Notes under the pieces: generated by a model | What the model was told of the DNA's origin: nothing | The model's database searches: none | What the model saw: only the letters and a program-made list of their open reading frames with translations | Program-made: the position numbers and the translations under genes | Assembly: GCA_016125275.1 (NCBI GenBank) | Contig: WGMB01000017.1 | Coordinates: 124,001 to 188,000 of the forward strand | Reading direction: 5' to 3' | From: Acidobacteriota bacterium | GTDB taxonomy: Bacteria; Acidobacteriota; Terriglobia; Bryobacterales; UBA6623 | DNA length: 64,000 nt | In this document: in pieces, positions 1 through 6,077 of the stretch | How the letters are laid out: each line of letters opens with the position of its first letter | How positions within the stretch are numbered: position 1 is the stretch's first letter

Positions 1-2125
1 CATCGGAGCCTTCCACCACCATGCGGCAGACGTCCTGCTGGTGCGGCCGAAACTCGTCGAACCCGAACACCTGCTTGAGCAGCACGGGCAGCCCGTCTGG
101 CGGCGTCTGGCGGCGTTCGGCCGGCAGCGGCGACGGGACGGGCGCAGGGCCCGGCTCCGCCTCCACCGACCGGGGCTTGCCAAACAGCCCCTCGGCGCGC
201 CGTACGTCGGCGACCGTGGCATGTCGTTGCATGCGCTTGGCCGACTCCGCCAAGCCCGCGCCCAGCAGCGTCGGCTGGCGCGGAGCCACAGCGGCCGGCG
301 GCTCGCCCACGACCTCGCGGACATACGCTTCGATGCCCGTCATGAAGCTCTCGAGCGTATCGTCGCCGCGCTCGATCGCCTTGAGCCGGGCCTCCCACTC
401 GCCGGTCATCTCCGGGCTCTTGACCTTCTCGTGGACGACCTCGATCAGCCGCACTCCCTTGTCGGTGGCCGCCAGCGAGCGTTTCTGGCGCTCCACATAG
501 CCTCTGTCGATGAGCGTCTCCAGGATCGAGGCGCGAGTGGCCGGCGTCCCCAAGCCGCGCTCGCGCATCGCCTCGGAGAGCTCCTTGTCATCCAGGGCCT
601 TGCCCGCGGACTCCATCGCGGTCAGCAGCGTGGCGTCAGTAAGGCGCTTTGGCGGACGGGTCTTCTTCTTGTCGAGCGAGACGTCCACGACCTTCGCGGC
701 GAGCCCTTCGGCGAGGCCCGCCGGCAACTGCGGCTCCTCGTCCTCGTCGCGCCGACTCTGCCGAGGCGGCTCGTCGACGGCCTTCCAGCCCTGCTGCTCC
801 ACCACCGTTCCGGAGCTGTGAAAGCGGTCCACGACCTCGCTCCCCTCGCCGACCGCCGTGATGACCGTCGTCGTCGATCGGATGTGCACGGGCTGCCAAG
901 CCGTCAGCAGACGTCGGCAAATCAGGTCGTAGATCTTGCCTTCGGGCGAGTCTCGGTCGAGGCCGTGGGAGGACCGGCCGGTGGGAATGATGGCGTGGTG
1001 ATCGGTGACCTTGGCGTCGTCCACGAAGCGCTTGCCGAGCGGCTTCGCGCCGGTCTCCGGGACCAGGTCCGCACGGTACGGCTCGGCGATCGCCTCCACG
1101 ACCTGCGGCAGGCGCTTGGCGATCTCCTTGGACAGGTGACGGCTGTCCGTGCGCGGGTAGGTGATCAGCTTCTCGCGCTCATACAGCCGCTGCGCGATCT
1201 CCAGCGTCTTGCCGGCTCGAAAGCCGTACAGGCGGTTTGCCCGCCGCTGCAGCTCGGTCAGGTCGAACAGCGGCGGCGCCGGCCAGCGCTGCGTCTCGCG
1301 CTCGGCGGACTCCACTCGCGCAGGCTGGTTGCGCACGCGAGCCGCGATCGCCTCGGCCTCTTCGCCGTCGATCGGCAACCGCGACTGGCGCTTGCCGCCT
1401 TCTTCGCGGAACCAGACGCCCTTCCAACGCTTGTCGGCCTCGGCCAGAAACTCCGCCGAGACCTCGAAGTACTCCTCGGGACGGAAGTTCCGGATATCGA
1501 GCTCGCGCCCCACCAGCATCGCCAGAGTCGGCGTCTGCACCCTGCCCACGGAAAGCGAATCATCGTAATCGAGGCTGTAAGCGCGCGAGAGATTCATGCC
1601 CACCAGCCAGTCGGCCCGGCTGCGGGCGCGCGCGGCGGCTCCCAGTCGATCGAAGTCGGTCCCTGGGCGCAAGCGCTCGAAACCCTCGCGAATCGCGTCG
1701 GCGGTCAGGGACGAGATCCACAACCGATCGAAGGGCCTTTCGCACCCGGCGGCTTCGCGAATCAGACGGAAAATGAGCTCGCCCTCGCGGCCGGCGTCCG
1801 TGGCGCAGACGATGCGGCCAATCTTCGGGCTGTTGAGAATCTTGCGGACGACCTCGAACTGGTCGAGCGTCTGCTCGGACGCCACCAGCGGCCAGGAATC
1901 CGGGAACATCGGCAGGGCGTTGCGCCGCCAACGTTTCCACTCCGGATTGATCTGGTGCGGCTCGGCCAGCCCCACCAAGTGGCCCACCGCCCAGGTGACC
2001 ACCCACCCGGCGCCGTGGAGATAGCCGCGACCCTGTTGATTGGCCCCCAACACGCGCGCAATATCGCGCGCTACGGAAGGCTTTTCGGCGACGACGGCCG
2101 AGCTTTTCTCGGCTGAAACGGACAA
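1..2125 (-). CDS. topB: DNA topoisomerase III fused to RecQ helicase (3' end outside window)
   Basis: One uninterrupted reading frame runs from a TTG start at 2125 to the window edge. Residues about 10-600 are a type IA topoisomerase: Toprim motifs EKPSVARDIARVLGA and CATDAGREGELIFR, the core motif VGRVQTPTLAMLVG, and the catalytic tyrosine Y323 in LITYPRTDS. After the usual end of TopB there is an Ala/Pro-rich linker (about 605-680), and then the opening motif of RecQ helicases, VFGFDEFRPHQQDVC. I checked codon by codon that the linker stays in frame, with no stop. TopB relaxes and decatenates DNA through a transient 5'-phosphotyrosine link. RecQ unwinds DNA 3' to 5', and the two enzymes work as partners in many organisms. 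The TTG start is chosen because a stop lies seven codons upstream and no ATG or GTG falls between; a GAGAG sequence sits 3-4 bases before it. Only about 25 RecQ residues are visible, so whether the helicase is complete is unknown. Confidence 0.88.
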   Translation of the reverse strand, partial: MSVSAEKSSAVVAEKPSVARDIARVLGANQQGRGYLHGAGWVVTWAVGHLVGLAEPHQINPEWKRWRRNALPMFPDSWPLVASEQTLDQFEVVRKILNSPKIGRIVCATDAGREGELIFRLIREAAGCERPFDRLWISSLTADAIREGFERLRPGTDFDRLGAAARARSRADWLVGMNLSRAYSLDYDDSLSVGRVQTPTLAMLVGRELDIRNFRPEEYFEVSAEFLAEADKRWKGVWFREEGGKRQSRLPIDGEEAEAIAARVRNQPARVESAERETQRWPAPPLFDLTELQRRANRLYGFRAGKTLEIAQRLYEREKLITYPRTDSRHLSKEIAKRLPQVVEAIAEPYRADLVPETGAKPLGKRFVDDAKVTDHHAIIPTGRSSHGLDRDSPEGKIYDLICRRLLTAWQPVHIRSTTTVITAVGEGSEVVDRFHSSGTVVEQQGWKAVDEPPRQSRRDEDEEPQLPAGLAEGLAAKVVDVSLDKKKTRPPKRLTDATLLTAMESAGKALDDKELSEAMRERGLGTPATRASILETLIDRGYVERQKRSLAATDKGVRLIEVVHEKVKSPEMTGEWEARLKAIERGDDTLESFMTGIEAYVREVVGEPPAAVAPRQPTLLGAGLAESAKRMQRHATVADVRRAEGLFGKPRSVEAEPGPAPVPSPLPAERRQTPPDGLPVLLKQVFGFDEFRPHQQDVCRMVVEGSD

Positions 2126-2240: not shown

Positions 2241-2600
2241 TCAGCTCGCCTTGGCGTGCAGCGCGGAACCGCTGTAGGAGTACGGCCGATTGAAGCCCGC
2301 GGCGTATGCCGCGGCTTGGCCACCGTCTTCCAGCGTTGAATCCCATTTGGGAATGACGTTATTTTGCTTTAAACGCTCCCGCACATCGTCCGGATCACGC
2401 GCGAGCAACGAACAGCAAAACTCGAACGTAAAACCAGACTTCGTACGCCCCTGAATCCACTCCAGAGCCTCCTCCCTGTGCCGTCTCGGCCCATTGCTGG
2501 CGTCCTGCAACGCCTGGATCAAGATCGCACCCGCCAACCGCTGCAAAGCCCTGTCGGGATCGGCCTGACTTCTGCCGGATAACATCGATGCCATGAACAT
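2241..2600 (-). CDS. Small protein of unknown function (119 aa)
   Basis: I do not recognise a named family. The protein is soluble, with no signal peptide or membrane segment. Its core alternates helical blocks around ALEWIQG, FTFEFCCSLLARDPD and VRERLKQ. This resembles small bacterial proteins in which a charged helix is followed by a short WixG motif and a DP(D/E)xVRxRL end, but I can assign no function. There are three in-frame ATG codons within the first six residues. The first is taken because an AGAGG lies about ten bases upstream. It follows topB on the same strand after a gap of about 115 bases, but it is transcribed towards topB from its own upstream region, so it may be the first gene of that unit. 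Confidence 0.55.
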   Translation of the reverse strand: MFMASMLSGRSQADPDRALQRLAGAILIQALQDASNGPRRHREEALEWIQGRTKSGFTFEFCCSLLARDPDDVRERLKQNNVIPKWDSTLEDGGQAAAYAAGFNRPYSYSGSALHAKAS

Positions 2601-2827: not shown

Positions 2828-3769
2828 ATGAGCGACTCGACCAGCGGTTCCAAGGCGCGGAAGGCGGGGTCCTCCGACCTTGCCATCGTCCCTCCCCCGC
2901 CCCCGGAAGGCGACGCGAGCCAGGCCGCCGAGCCGGCTCTGACGCCCGACGATCTGGCCCTGCTGAACTCCGGCGCGGGCCTGCGCAAGCTACTCAAATC
3001 CAAGCACATCAAGGTCGGGAAGATTCTGGCGGCGCTACGCTACGAGCAGGAGTTGGAGGGTTTGCAGGTGGAGCTCGTCAAGCTCCAGCGCTCAGTGCAG
3101 GAGGAAGGCCGCCGGGTCGCCATCATCTTCGAGGGCCGGGACGCGGCGGGCAAGGGCGGCGCCATCCTGCGGTTCACGCAGCACCTGAGCCCTCGCGCCA
3201 TGCGGGTGGTGGCCCTAGCCAAACCCACTCCGGTGGAGAAGGGAGAATGGTACTTCCAGCGCTACACCCGGCACTTGCCCGATCCCGGCCAGATGGTCTT
3301 CTTCGACCGCTCCTGGTACAACCGGGCGGTCGTGGAGCCGGTCAACGGCTTCTGCACCGAGGAGCAGTACCAGACCTTCATGCGCCAAGTTCCGGAATTC
3401 GAGCACATGCTCTTCGAGGACGGCATCGAGATGATCAAGTTCTGGTTCTCGATCACCAAGAAGACTCAGCAGAAGCGGTTTCGCTCGCGGCGGCGCAATC
3501 CGCTCAAGAACTGGAAGGTGAGCCCCGTCGACGAGCGCGCCCAGGACCTGTGGGATTCTTACACCCACTACAAGGACGAGATGTTCAGCCGGACGCACAC
3601 GTCCTACAGCCCCTGGATCATCGTCGGCACCAACGACAAACACAAGGCCCGCCTGGAGGGCATCCGCTACGTGCTTTCGCGGCTGCCCTACGAAGGGAAG
3701 AGCGACGCCAAGGTCGATCTCTATCCCGACCCTAACGTCGTCTCCCGCTTCCACCGCGGCTCGATCTGA
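2828..3769 (+). CDS. ppk2: Polyphosphate kinase 2, class I type
   Basis: PPK2 transfers phosphate between polyphosphate and nucleotides; class I enzymes favour making ATP or GTP from the diphosphate. The 313-aa product has the Walker A motif EGRDAAGKGG (around residue 104), the lid/Walker B stretch FFDRSWYNRAVVEPVNGFC (around 158), and the basic block TQQKRFRSRRRNP typical of the family. The first 55 residues are low-complexity and Pro/Ala-rich and lie outside the conserved core. No clear ribosome site precedes the ATG, and the start could lie slightly downstream. Class I rather than class II or III is inferred from length and from the VEPVNGFC motif. The gene stands alone and converges on the small gene at 3785-4024. 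Confidence 0.93.
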   Translation: MSDSTSGSKARKAGSSDLAIVPPPPPEGDASQAAEPALTPDDLALLNSGAGLRKLLKSKHIKVGKILAALRYEQELEGLQVELVKLQRSVQEEGRRVAIIFEGRDAAGKGGAILRFTQHLSPRAMRVVALAKPTPVEKGEWYFQRYTRHLPDPGQMVFFDRSWYNRAVVEPVNGFCTEEQYQTFMRQVPEFEHMLFEDGIEMIKFWFSITKKTQQKRFRSRRRNPLKNWKVSPVDERAQDLWDSYTHYKDEMFSRTHTSYSPWIIVGTNDKHKARLEGIRYVLSRLPYEGKSDAKVDLYPDPNVVSRFHRGSI

Positions 3770-4026: not shown

Positions 4027-4974
4027 CTATTGCGCATAGTAGCCGGGGCGATGACGCACCTTGTACTTCTTCGCCTTGCCCTTGAGCTCGATCTTGATCT
4101 CGCGAAATCCCTTCGAGTCGAGATCGGTCGGCGTGTAGGCCAGTGTGTACTGATTGCGGATGTCGTAGGCGATCTGGGTGGTCAGCGAGTGTACCTCGTC
4201 GACCGTCTCCGGGAAGTACGACGGCCCGCCCGTCGCCCGCGTGATGTAGCGGATCGCCCGGGCGGCGCGCTTGGCGGACCCCTTCTCTTCCTCGCTCAGC
4301 AGGCCGATCGAATAGATCGTGGTGGCGTTGTTCTGCTCCTGCAACTCGCGCACCAGCGTCTCCAGGTCGAGCTTCGGCTTGCTGGCGTTGTCTTCGCCGT
4401 CGGTGATGAGGAGCAGAACCCGCTTGTCGTGCTTGGCCTTCTCGTTGAGGTAGTCCAGCGACATCTGGATCGCCAGATAGAACGCCGTGCCGCCGCGCGA
4501 GTCGATGCGCTGCAAGGCGTCCTGCATGCGGTCGATGTCGTTGGTGAAGGGGCTATCGAGATAGGCGTCGTCGTTGAAGTTGACGATGAAGACCTCATCA
4601 TCGGGGTTCGACGCCTTCACGAAGTCCACGGCCGCGGCGTTGACCTTCAGCCGCTTGTCCCGCATTGAGCCGGAGTTGTCGACCAGAATGCCTACGGAAA
4701 CCGGCACGTCTTCCCGACGGAAGAGCTTGATCGGCTGCAGAACGCCGTTCTCATAGATCTCGAAGGAGTCTTCCTTGAGATCGGGGACGATGCGGTCATC
4801 CTTGTCGGCGACGGTCACATGCAGCACCACCAGCTCGGTGCCGCCCGTGAAGACGGGAACCACGCCCTCTTCCTGTCCATCAGACCCGCTCTGCGCGCGG
4901 GCTACAACTACGGTCACGCCGCCGAGGCCGAGGGCCAGAGCGCTGGACAGAAAGGCTCTTCTCGAATTCCCCAT
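4027..4974 (-). CDS. VWFA-related acidobacterial protein, Tat-exported
   Basis: Secreted protein with one von Willebrand factor A domain of the acidobacterial type (the TIGR03436 group). The ATG at 4974 gives MGNSRRAFLSSALALGLGG, a twin-arginine-like signal; a longer frame upstream lacks this logic and overlaps the preceding gene. After a short linker come a beta-rich pre-domain (ELVVLHVTVADKDDRIVPDL) and the metal site DNSGSM (D99, S101, S103), with the second acidic cluster at LLLITDGEDNASKP. The C-terminal motif YDIRNQYTLAYTPT and the RHRPGYYAQ end are typical of the group. Function in these bacteria is not established; metal-dependent protein binding at the cell surface or in the periplasm is the usual inference. 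It is the middle gene of a three-gene unit, downstream of a paralogue. Confidence 0.88.
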   Translation of the reverse strand: MGNSRRAFLSSALALGLGGVTVVVARAQSGSDGQEEGVVPVFTGGTELVVLHVTVADKDDRIVPDLKEDSFEIYENGVLQPIKLFRREDVPVSVGILVDNSGSMRDKRLKVNAAAVDFVKASNPDDEVFIVNFNDDAYLDSPFTNDIDRMQDALQRIDSRGGTAFYLAIQMSLDYLNEKAKHDKRVLLLITDGEDNASKPKLDLETLVRELQEQNNATTIYSIGLLSEEEKGSAKRAARAIRYITRATGGPSYFPETVDEVHSLTTQIAYDIRNQYTLAYTPTDLDSKGFREIKIELKGKAKKYKVRHRPGYYAQ

Positions 4975-5012
4975 TCTCCCGATTGTACGCGGCCTGAACC
5001 GTTTCCGTTGCT

Positions 5013-6077
5013 TTATCGGGAAGGAGCGTAGTACCCGTTGCGGAAATACGGGCGCAACTGCGGCATGCCGCGAATCTTCTGGATCTCCACCTTCACGCGC
5101 CGCCACTTGCCGTCGCGGTCAAGGTTGGTGGGCACGTAGCCGAGCACGTATTGGTTGCGAAGCTCGATGCCGATCTTCTCCGCCACGTCAGGAAGCTCGT
5201 TGAGGTTCTCCACCGGAAACTGCCGGCCGCCGGTCGCTTCCGTGATGTCATTGAGCAGCCCCGGTCCAGCCAATTCTTCCGGCGTCCGGCTCCTCGCCCC
5301 ATAGGGTTCGAAGATGCCGATGGCGTAGATCTGTACGTCCGACTCCCGCACCAAGCTCTTGATCTCCCGCTCGGTGTAACGGCTCGAGTTGTCGCCGCCG
5401 TCGGAGATCACCAGTAGCGCCTTGCGCTGGTTCTTGGCTTCCTTCATCTTGTTCAGGGCCAAGTAGATGGCGTCCAACAGAGCGGTGCGACCTTTGGACT
5501 CGATAAACGTGAGGCGGCTCTGGATGTCCTCCAAGCTGTCGGTGAACTCCGTCAGCATGTCGGGACGGTTGTTGAACGTTTCCAGGAAGAACTCGTCCTC
5601 GGGGTTGGCCGTCTTGAAGAACTGCGCCACGGCCTCGCGGGCCTTGCTCATCTTCTCGCCCATGCTGCCGGAGGCGTCAAAGACAATCGCAAGAGAAAGA
5701 GGCGAATCCTCAGCGCCGAACTGTACGATCTCCTGCTTGTTCTTGTCCTCGGAGATCTCGAAGTGTTCCTTGCCCAGACCGGTGACCATGCGGCCCATCG
5801 GGTCGGTCACGGTCACGTTGATCAGCACCAAGTCGACGTCCGTCTTGATGACCGACGCGCGTTGGTTCTGGCGATCCTGGGCCGAATCCTGCGGCCTGGT
5901 CTTGAGCTCGACGGTGGCGGAAGCGTCCGCGGTGGCGGCTTTGTCGGCGGGATCCTGTGGGAGATTCGCGTCGGCGGACCGAAGCGGTGCGGGCGAAAAC
6001 CAAAACAAGCAACCGAGCGTAATCGTCACTAGAGGGAGTTGCCCATGCGACATCCAACCGCTCCTGCTCTTGATCAC
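5013..6077 (-). CDS. VWFA-related acidobacterial protein, secreted (paralogue of the next gene)
   Basis: First gene of the VWA operon. The GTG start at 6077 is chosen because AAGGAGG stands just four to five bases before it; an in-frame ATG eight codons in is the alternative. A hydrophobic signal segment (LPLVTITLGCLFWFSPAP) is followed by a Gln/Asp-rich spacer, the pre-domain (VDLVLINVTVTDPMGRMV) and the VWA metal site DASGSM (D134, S136, S138), then ALLVISDGGDNSSRYT and the family end IELRNQYVLGYVPTNLDRDG. It shares this whole plan with the downstream gene, so the two probably arose by duplication and may work as a pair. The 38-base gap between them fits one transcript. Confidence 0.88.
   Translation of the reverse strand: MIKSRSGWMSHGQLPLVTITLGCLFWFSPAPLRSADANLPQDPADKAATADASATVELKTRPQDSAQDRQNQRASVIKTDVDLVLINVTVTDPMGRMVTGLGKEHFEISEDKNKQEIVQFGAEDSPLSLAIVFDASGSMGEKMSKAREAVAQFFKTANPEDEFFLETFNNRPDMLTEFTDSLEDIQSRLTFIESKGRTALLDAIYLALNKMKEAKNQRKALLVISDGGDNSSRYTEREIKSLVRESDVQIYAIGIFEPYGARSRTPEELAGPGLLNDITEATGGRQFPVENLNELPDVAEKIGIELRNQYVLGYVPTNLDRDGKWRRVKVEIQKIRGMPQLRPYFRNGYYAPSR

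Follow-up and report, generated by a model that had tools for sequence, protein, structure and literature searches.

The left edge of the DNA that we analysed raises the question of whether topoisomerase III (TopB) and the RecQ helicase are encoded there as one polypeptide and, if so, what such a protein would do. This stretch, hereafter the window, comprises 64,000 nucleotides (G000:C8:124001-188000) of an Acidobacteriota genome of 7.55 Mb in 20 contigs, which is 97.6% complete and 1.3% contaminated. The contig sequence that we fetched matched the window exactly over their overlap. We found the fused topB-recQ gene to be a single frame of 1350 codons on the minus strand (G000:C8:122073-126125), with a TTG start and no internal stop. 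Its stop codon lies past the left edge of the window, at G000:C8:122073, and the part within the window contains the following features, all on the minus strand.

1..2125, minus strand: 5' part of the fused topB-recQ gene (P0001); TTG start at 2125..2123, 1350 aa overall

1709..2098, minus strand: Toprim domain, residues 10-139, with AEKPSVARD (E14) and CATDAGREGE (D110/E114); from Pfam PF01751 and alignment to E. coli TopoIII

341..1651, minus strand: topoisomerase IA core of the TopB type, residues 159-595; PF01131 (E 1.5e-114) and TIGR01056

1157..1159, minus strand: catalytic tyrosine Y323 in LITYPRTDSR, aligned with the LITYPRSD tyrosine of E. coli TopoIII and invariant in fusions

86..292, minus strand: Pro/Ala-rich linker, residues 612-680; in a homologue predicted to be disordered, with a pLDDT of about 30

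1..85, minus strand: start of RecQ, residue 681 onward, with FGFDEFRPHQQ at 67..35; the remainder of RecQ lies past the window edge (L003:10073-12000)

The initial annotation had claimed that the TopB frame runs through an Ala/Pro linker into FGFDEFRPHQQ without a stop, and the minus strand from 2125 to 1 confirms this reading. It had looked to the sequence beyond the left edge for Walker A and B, RQC and HRDC, and all are present. Within L003:10073-12000 we found Walker A (PTGAGKS), DEAH, TATAT, motif VI, the zinc-binding region (1092-1137), the winged helix and HRDC (1279-1343). We assigned the RQC winged helix from the predicted structure of a homologue, not from Pfam. The antisense strand of the fused gene also holds an open frame of 704 codons, so frame length alone is weak proof of a fusion. 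The proof lies in the join itself, which is conserved in dozens of genomes (see below). For the same reason, that both halves share one frame in dozens of other genomes, we rejected a chance open frame.

Each half of the protein is a full member of its family by sequence and predicted fold. Topoisomerase III is complete (residues 1-610) and is followed by the linker of about 68 residues and by a complete RecQ. The order of Pfam domains is Toprim (10-139), Topoisom_bac (159-595), DEAD (693-852), Helicase_C (893-998), RecQ_Zn_bind (1092-1137) and HRDC (1279-1343). The TopB half scored 573.6 bits against the NCBIfam model TIGR01056 (topB), above the curated cut-off of 515.75, and the RecQ half scored 398 bits against TIGR00614 (recQ_fam), above the cut-off of 219.8. 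The score against TIGR01054 (reverse gyrase) was 113.1 bits, below its cut-off of 471.7. The nearest solved structures by sequence were E. coli TopoIII (residues 12-608) and bacterial RecQ (from residue 678). The alignment to E. coli TopoIII stops at its residue 605 of 653, and the fusion has the linker in place of the C-terminal tail.

Alignment to E. coli TopoIII placed the catalytic residues Y323, E14, D110 and E114 in the TopB half. The Toprim acidic residues were invariant across 12 aligned fusions, as was a glycine that replaces the second aspartate of the E. coli DPD motif (DAG). In nine full fusions the catalytic tyrosine was likewise invariant, and the RecQ half kept Walker A (PTGAGKS), DEAHCISQWGHDFRPEY, TATAT, QEIGRAGRDG (the motif VI region) and the zinc-domain cysteines. 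Judged from these alignments, the catalytic residues are intact in both halves. The region equivalent to the decatenation loop fell short of its E. coli counterpart by a few residues and varied in length between fusions; in bacterial TopoIII this loop is the functional equivalent of Rmi1 (PMC13244152). Pfam matched the four-cysteine zinc domain (PF16124) and HRDC (PF00570), and its RQC model gave no match in the fused protein.

Structures were predicted for a homologue, L058, which is 58% identical to the protein of the window (whole-genome search). AlphaFold2 modelled the first 1150 residues as two folded modules joined by a linker (622-673) with a pLDDT of about 30; the placement of the halves comes without an inter-domain error estimate. 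Foldseek matched this model best to E. coli TopoIII, with RecQ lower in the list. The model of the C-terminal half (mean pLDDT 83.7) contained the helicase core, the zinc domain and HRDC (629-695). Between the zinc domain and HRDC it had a predicted winged helix of the RQC type with a long hairpin (511-582), and the best Foldseek matches were RecQ cores and BLM. In addition to the RQC winged helix, residues 385-440 of this half (L058:4514-6601, plus strand) are predicted to form a winged-helix-like insert at the junction of helicase core and zinc domain, a difference from the separate RecQ of E. coli and Listeria.

The initial annotation had left open whether related genomes carry the fusion, and we found it in dozens of Acidobacteriota and Myxococcota. 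Both halves lie in one frame in 10/396 sampled Acidobacteriota genomes, that of the window included, and in 23/189 sampled Myxococcota, many of the surveyed genomes being MAGs. When the phylum search was centred on a Bryobacterales genome, it recovered the same genomes as the search within the phylum of the window, which places the window in Acidobacteriota and not, as first supposed, in a planctomycete. A scan of named genomes added at least 26 one-frame fusions, mostly from Acidobacteriota (Bryobacterales, Terriglobia) and Myxococcota, among them Nannocystis, in which the fusion lies on a complete chromosome (NZ_CP114040.1). The same scan listed one fusion-bearing MAG each under the labels Planctomycetota, Competibacteraceae and Geobacter, and these may be mis-binned. 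HRDC is absent from some fusions, namely those of Nannocystis, a deltaproteobacterial MAG and G349 (L088, L067 and L053). In G376 the gene is split at contig ends inside RecQ: the TopB frame stops at RecQ residue 43 and a second contig resumes there. The fusion in G246 is probably split in the same way. We also observed TopB frames with long unexplained extensions, one without RecQ (L057:3193-6381, plus strand, 1063 aa) and one with it (L066:1504-6849, plus strand, 1782 aa). In a search for a mobile-element origin, no record with 80% query coverage was found among the 5000 best of 72,556 plasmids or in 50,697 phages. Open-access (PMC) literature yielded no earlier description of a TopB-RecQ fusion; the fusion may still be described in subscription journals or recorded as a domain architecture in a database.

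Across 32/32 tested genomes that carry a fused or shortened copy (the shortened form is described below), this copy was the sole TopB above the topB family cut-off. Three other Myxococcota (G555, G485 and G530) have a second TopB besides the fusion, at 41-43% identity. In the genome of the window, the fusion is also the sole RecQ above the family cut-off; a TopA-like frame supplies the one further type IA core. Extra RecQ proteins can accompany the fusion elsewhere, for example in Nannocystis.

We then asked how often the fusion arose. A TopB tree with 121 rows, 57 of them fused, was built by a quick method without bootstrap. In it, all fused and shortened copies, together with every split copy except one, formed one group (SH-aLRT 100, stem 0.28). 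The exception, L279, grouped with free TopBs and had been labelled split only from a contig-end cut. No free-standing TopB fell inside the fused clade of this tree, and one ancient fusion is therefore likely. Independent repeated fusions are less likely because the fused TopBs form a single clade; repeated fusion to a single RecQ lineage is possible and would need unsampled free relatives of TopB. In the RecQ tree, the fused copies and some 33 free RecQs formed one group (support 100, stem 0.73), with the free RecQs of Acidobacteriaceae (100) nested within the fused group of Bryobacterales (98). A mixture-model tree of 43 rows retained the nesting (97/89), and constraining all fused RecQs to one clade was rejected (AU p 7e-24). 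Since free-standing RecQs nest inside the fused clade, RecQ probably became separate on several occasions, shedding the TopB part. A genome with both a full fusion and a free RecQ of the released clade (G588, L062) is a plausible intermediate. Taken together, the simplest reading of the trees is that a single fusion was inherited, with some transfer from phylum to phylum, and that RecQ was set free repeatedly.

What would such a protein do? We infer its activity, substrate, coupling and in vivo role from its domains, active sites and exclusivity, and on these grounds it is probably a natural single-chain RecQ-topoisomerase III, acting as a dissolvase or decatenase. The initial annotation had proposed this function, and it remains the best explanation for a fusion that is real, complete, ancient, conserved and usually the sole TopB. 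In the proposed mechanism, the C-terminal RecQ motor would load on branched DNA or on joint molecules from late replication or recombination. By hydrolysing ATP it would unwind duplex or push junctions together, exposing the single-stranded segment required by type IA topoisomerases. On its flexible tether, the N-terminal TopB would then cut that strand via Y323, pass the other strand and reseal, so clearing precatenanes, hemicatenanes or converged double Holliday junctions. Fusion would fix a 1:1 ratio of helicase to topoisomerase and keep both locally concentrated, and this stoichiometry and proximity would be the simplest reason for its conservation. Against this function stand the fusions that lack HRDC, the three Acidobacteriaceae copies with a dead RecQ lobe (see below) and the second TopB of three Myxococcota.

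The initial annotation took joint action of RecQ and TopoIII in bacteria as given; this premise was too strong, being disputed for E. coli (PMC4125114, PMC13244152). RecQ boosts strand passage by TopoIII in vitro, and the two E. coli proteins reportedly do not interact physically, with their cooperation in vivo questioned (PMC4125114). A 2026 study of E. coli genetics names RecG, not RecQ, as the partner of TopoIII (PMC13244152). According to a review, TopoIII and a RecQ-family helicase together form the dissolvasome, which acts on double Holliday junctions and on (pre)catenanes (PMC8191776). Whether the pair forms a unit in bacteria is thus disputed, and the fusion makes the question directly testable. 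An ancient fusion that is conserved in two phyla and is usually the sole TopB argues that the pair is one machine in these lineages. An independent sign of functional linkage is the adjacency of recQ and topB in Listeria monocytogenes, where recQ precedes topB by 23 nt (L158:2980-6929, plus strand). That Listeria record is labelled a plasmid, yet has housekeeping genes such as guaB.

The fusion differs from the separate E. coli RecQ and TopoIII, and from the adjacent Listeria genes, in being one chain with TopB first. It resembles the dissolvasomes Sgs1-Top3-Rmi1 and BLM-TOP3A-RMI1-RMI2 in holding a RecQ-family helicase and a type IA topoisomerase together. Whereas the eukaryotic proteins assemble into a complex that includes RMI OB-fold subunits, the link in the fusion is covalent, and it would substitute for the physical contact of Sgs1-Top3 and BLM-TOP3A that is seemingly absent from E. 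coli RecQ-TopoIII. The fusion is thus an independent bacterial case beside Sgs1-Top3 and BLM-TOP3A, in which coupling can be tested on a single polypeptide with mutations in the linker or in either active site.

An alternative is that fusion serves co-expression only, giving equal dosage of two mostly independent enzymes, TopB at fork precatenanes and RecQ in recombination, with no catalytic coupling in cis. The linker accords with this reading, being long, variable and predicted to be disordered: across 64 frames, among them shortened and contig-cut ones, it spans 24-379 codons (median 58) and has a high content of Pro, Ala and charged residues. Such variation in length argues against a fixed mechanical coupling. 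The repeated release of RecQ points the same way, as does the failure of E. coli genetics to support RecQ-TopoIII cooperation (PMC13244152); free RecQs occur several times inside the fused clade, so coupling would be dispensable in some lineages. However, an operon layout as in Listeria would suffice for equal dosage without fusion, and the fused clade in our sample lacks free TopB, with the fused TopB usually the only one. We consider co-expression alone rather unlikely.

A stronger form of the dissolvase reading is that the covalent link couples ATP-driven movement of RecQ to strand passage by TopB in cis, yielding ATP-dependent, directional topoisomerase activity. Reverse gyrase carries its helicase module N-terminal to the topoisomerase. 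It joins an SF2 helicase-like module and a type IA topoisomerase in one chain (PMC4200833), whereas the fusion has the topoisomerase N-terminal, a TopB-type topoisomerase, and a RecQ-family helicase with zinc, winged-helix and HRDC domains. If coupling in cis were true, the activity would be one found in neither separate enzyme, and the fusion would be a counterpart of reverse gyrase with its modules in the opposite order. We regard this stronger form as doubtful.

A shortened form in Acidobacteriaceae bears on whether RecQ is needed as a motor. In three cases (G241 and G281 from the Acidobacteriota sample, and L074), TopB is followed by only about 184 RecQ residues and a stop. The remnant is a single RecA lobe in which DEAH has become EEAE and TATAT has become TREQT. 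The ratio dN/dS was 0.14-0.17 in the RecQ lobe, 0.07-0.09 in TopB and 0.5-0.6 in the linker. Judged from its motifs and these ratios, the lobe is catalytically dead yet under purifying selection, and the value of 0.14-0.17 argues against plain decay. The corresponding frames are as follows.

L043:3621-6221, L044:2964-5552 and L074:2-2626, plus strand: TopB with a putatively dead single-lobe RecQ remnant; dN/dS about 0.15

Retention of this constrained lobe would fit a RecQ that serves TopB as a DNA-binding or targeting module, with an ATPase of little importance. Every helicase motif is nevertheless retained in 9/9 aligned full fusions, and a complete, free-standing RecQ from the released clade accompanies the shortened form in both reduced genomes that we checked (G241 and G281). 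A mere targeting role is therefore very improbable.

That the fusion is an artefact, through an assembly join, a frameshift or an internal start that yields two proteins from the same frame, is hardly credible: a Shine-Dalgarno-like start lies within or near the linker in 11/64 frames and the gene is split at contig ends in several MAGs, but no start there is conserved among the 64 frames, which disfavours separate translation of RecQ, and dozens of frames across many genera, including the 57 in the TopB tree with one from the complete Nannocystis chromosome, match in order and register, so that we rejected an assembly join or frameshift.

Several genes flank the fused gene in the window. Directly upstream and on the same strand is a 119-aa frame without a Pfam match (2241-2600, minus strand), and a PPK2 (polyphosphate kinase 2) gene is divergent from the fused gene (2828-3769, plus strand). 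Beyond these, two tandem overlapping frames encode von Willebrand factor A domain proteins (4027-5106 and 5013-6077, both minus strand).
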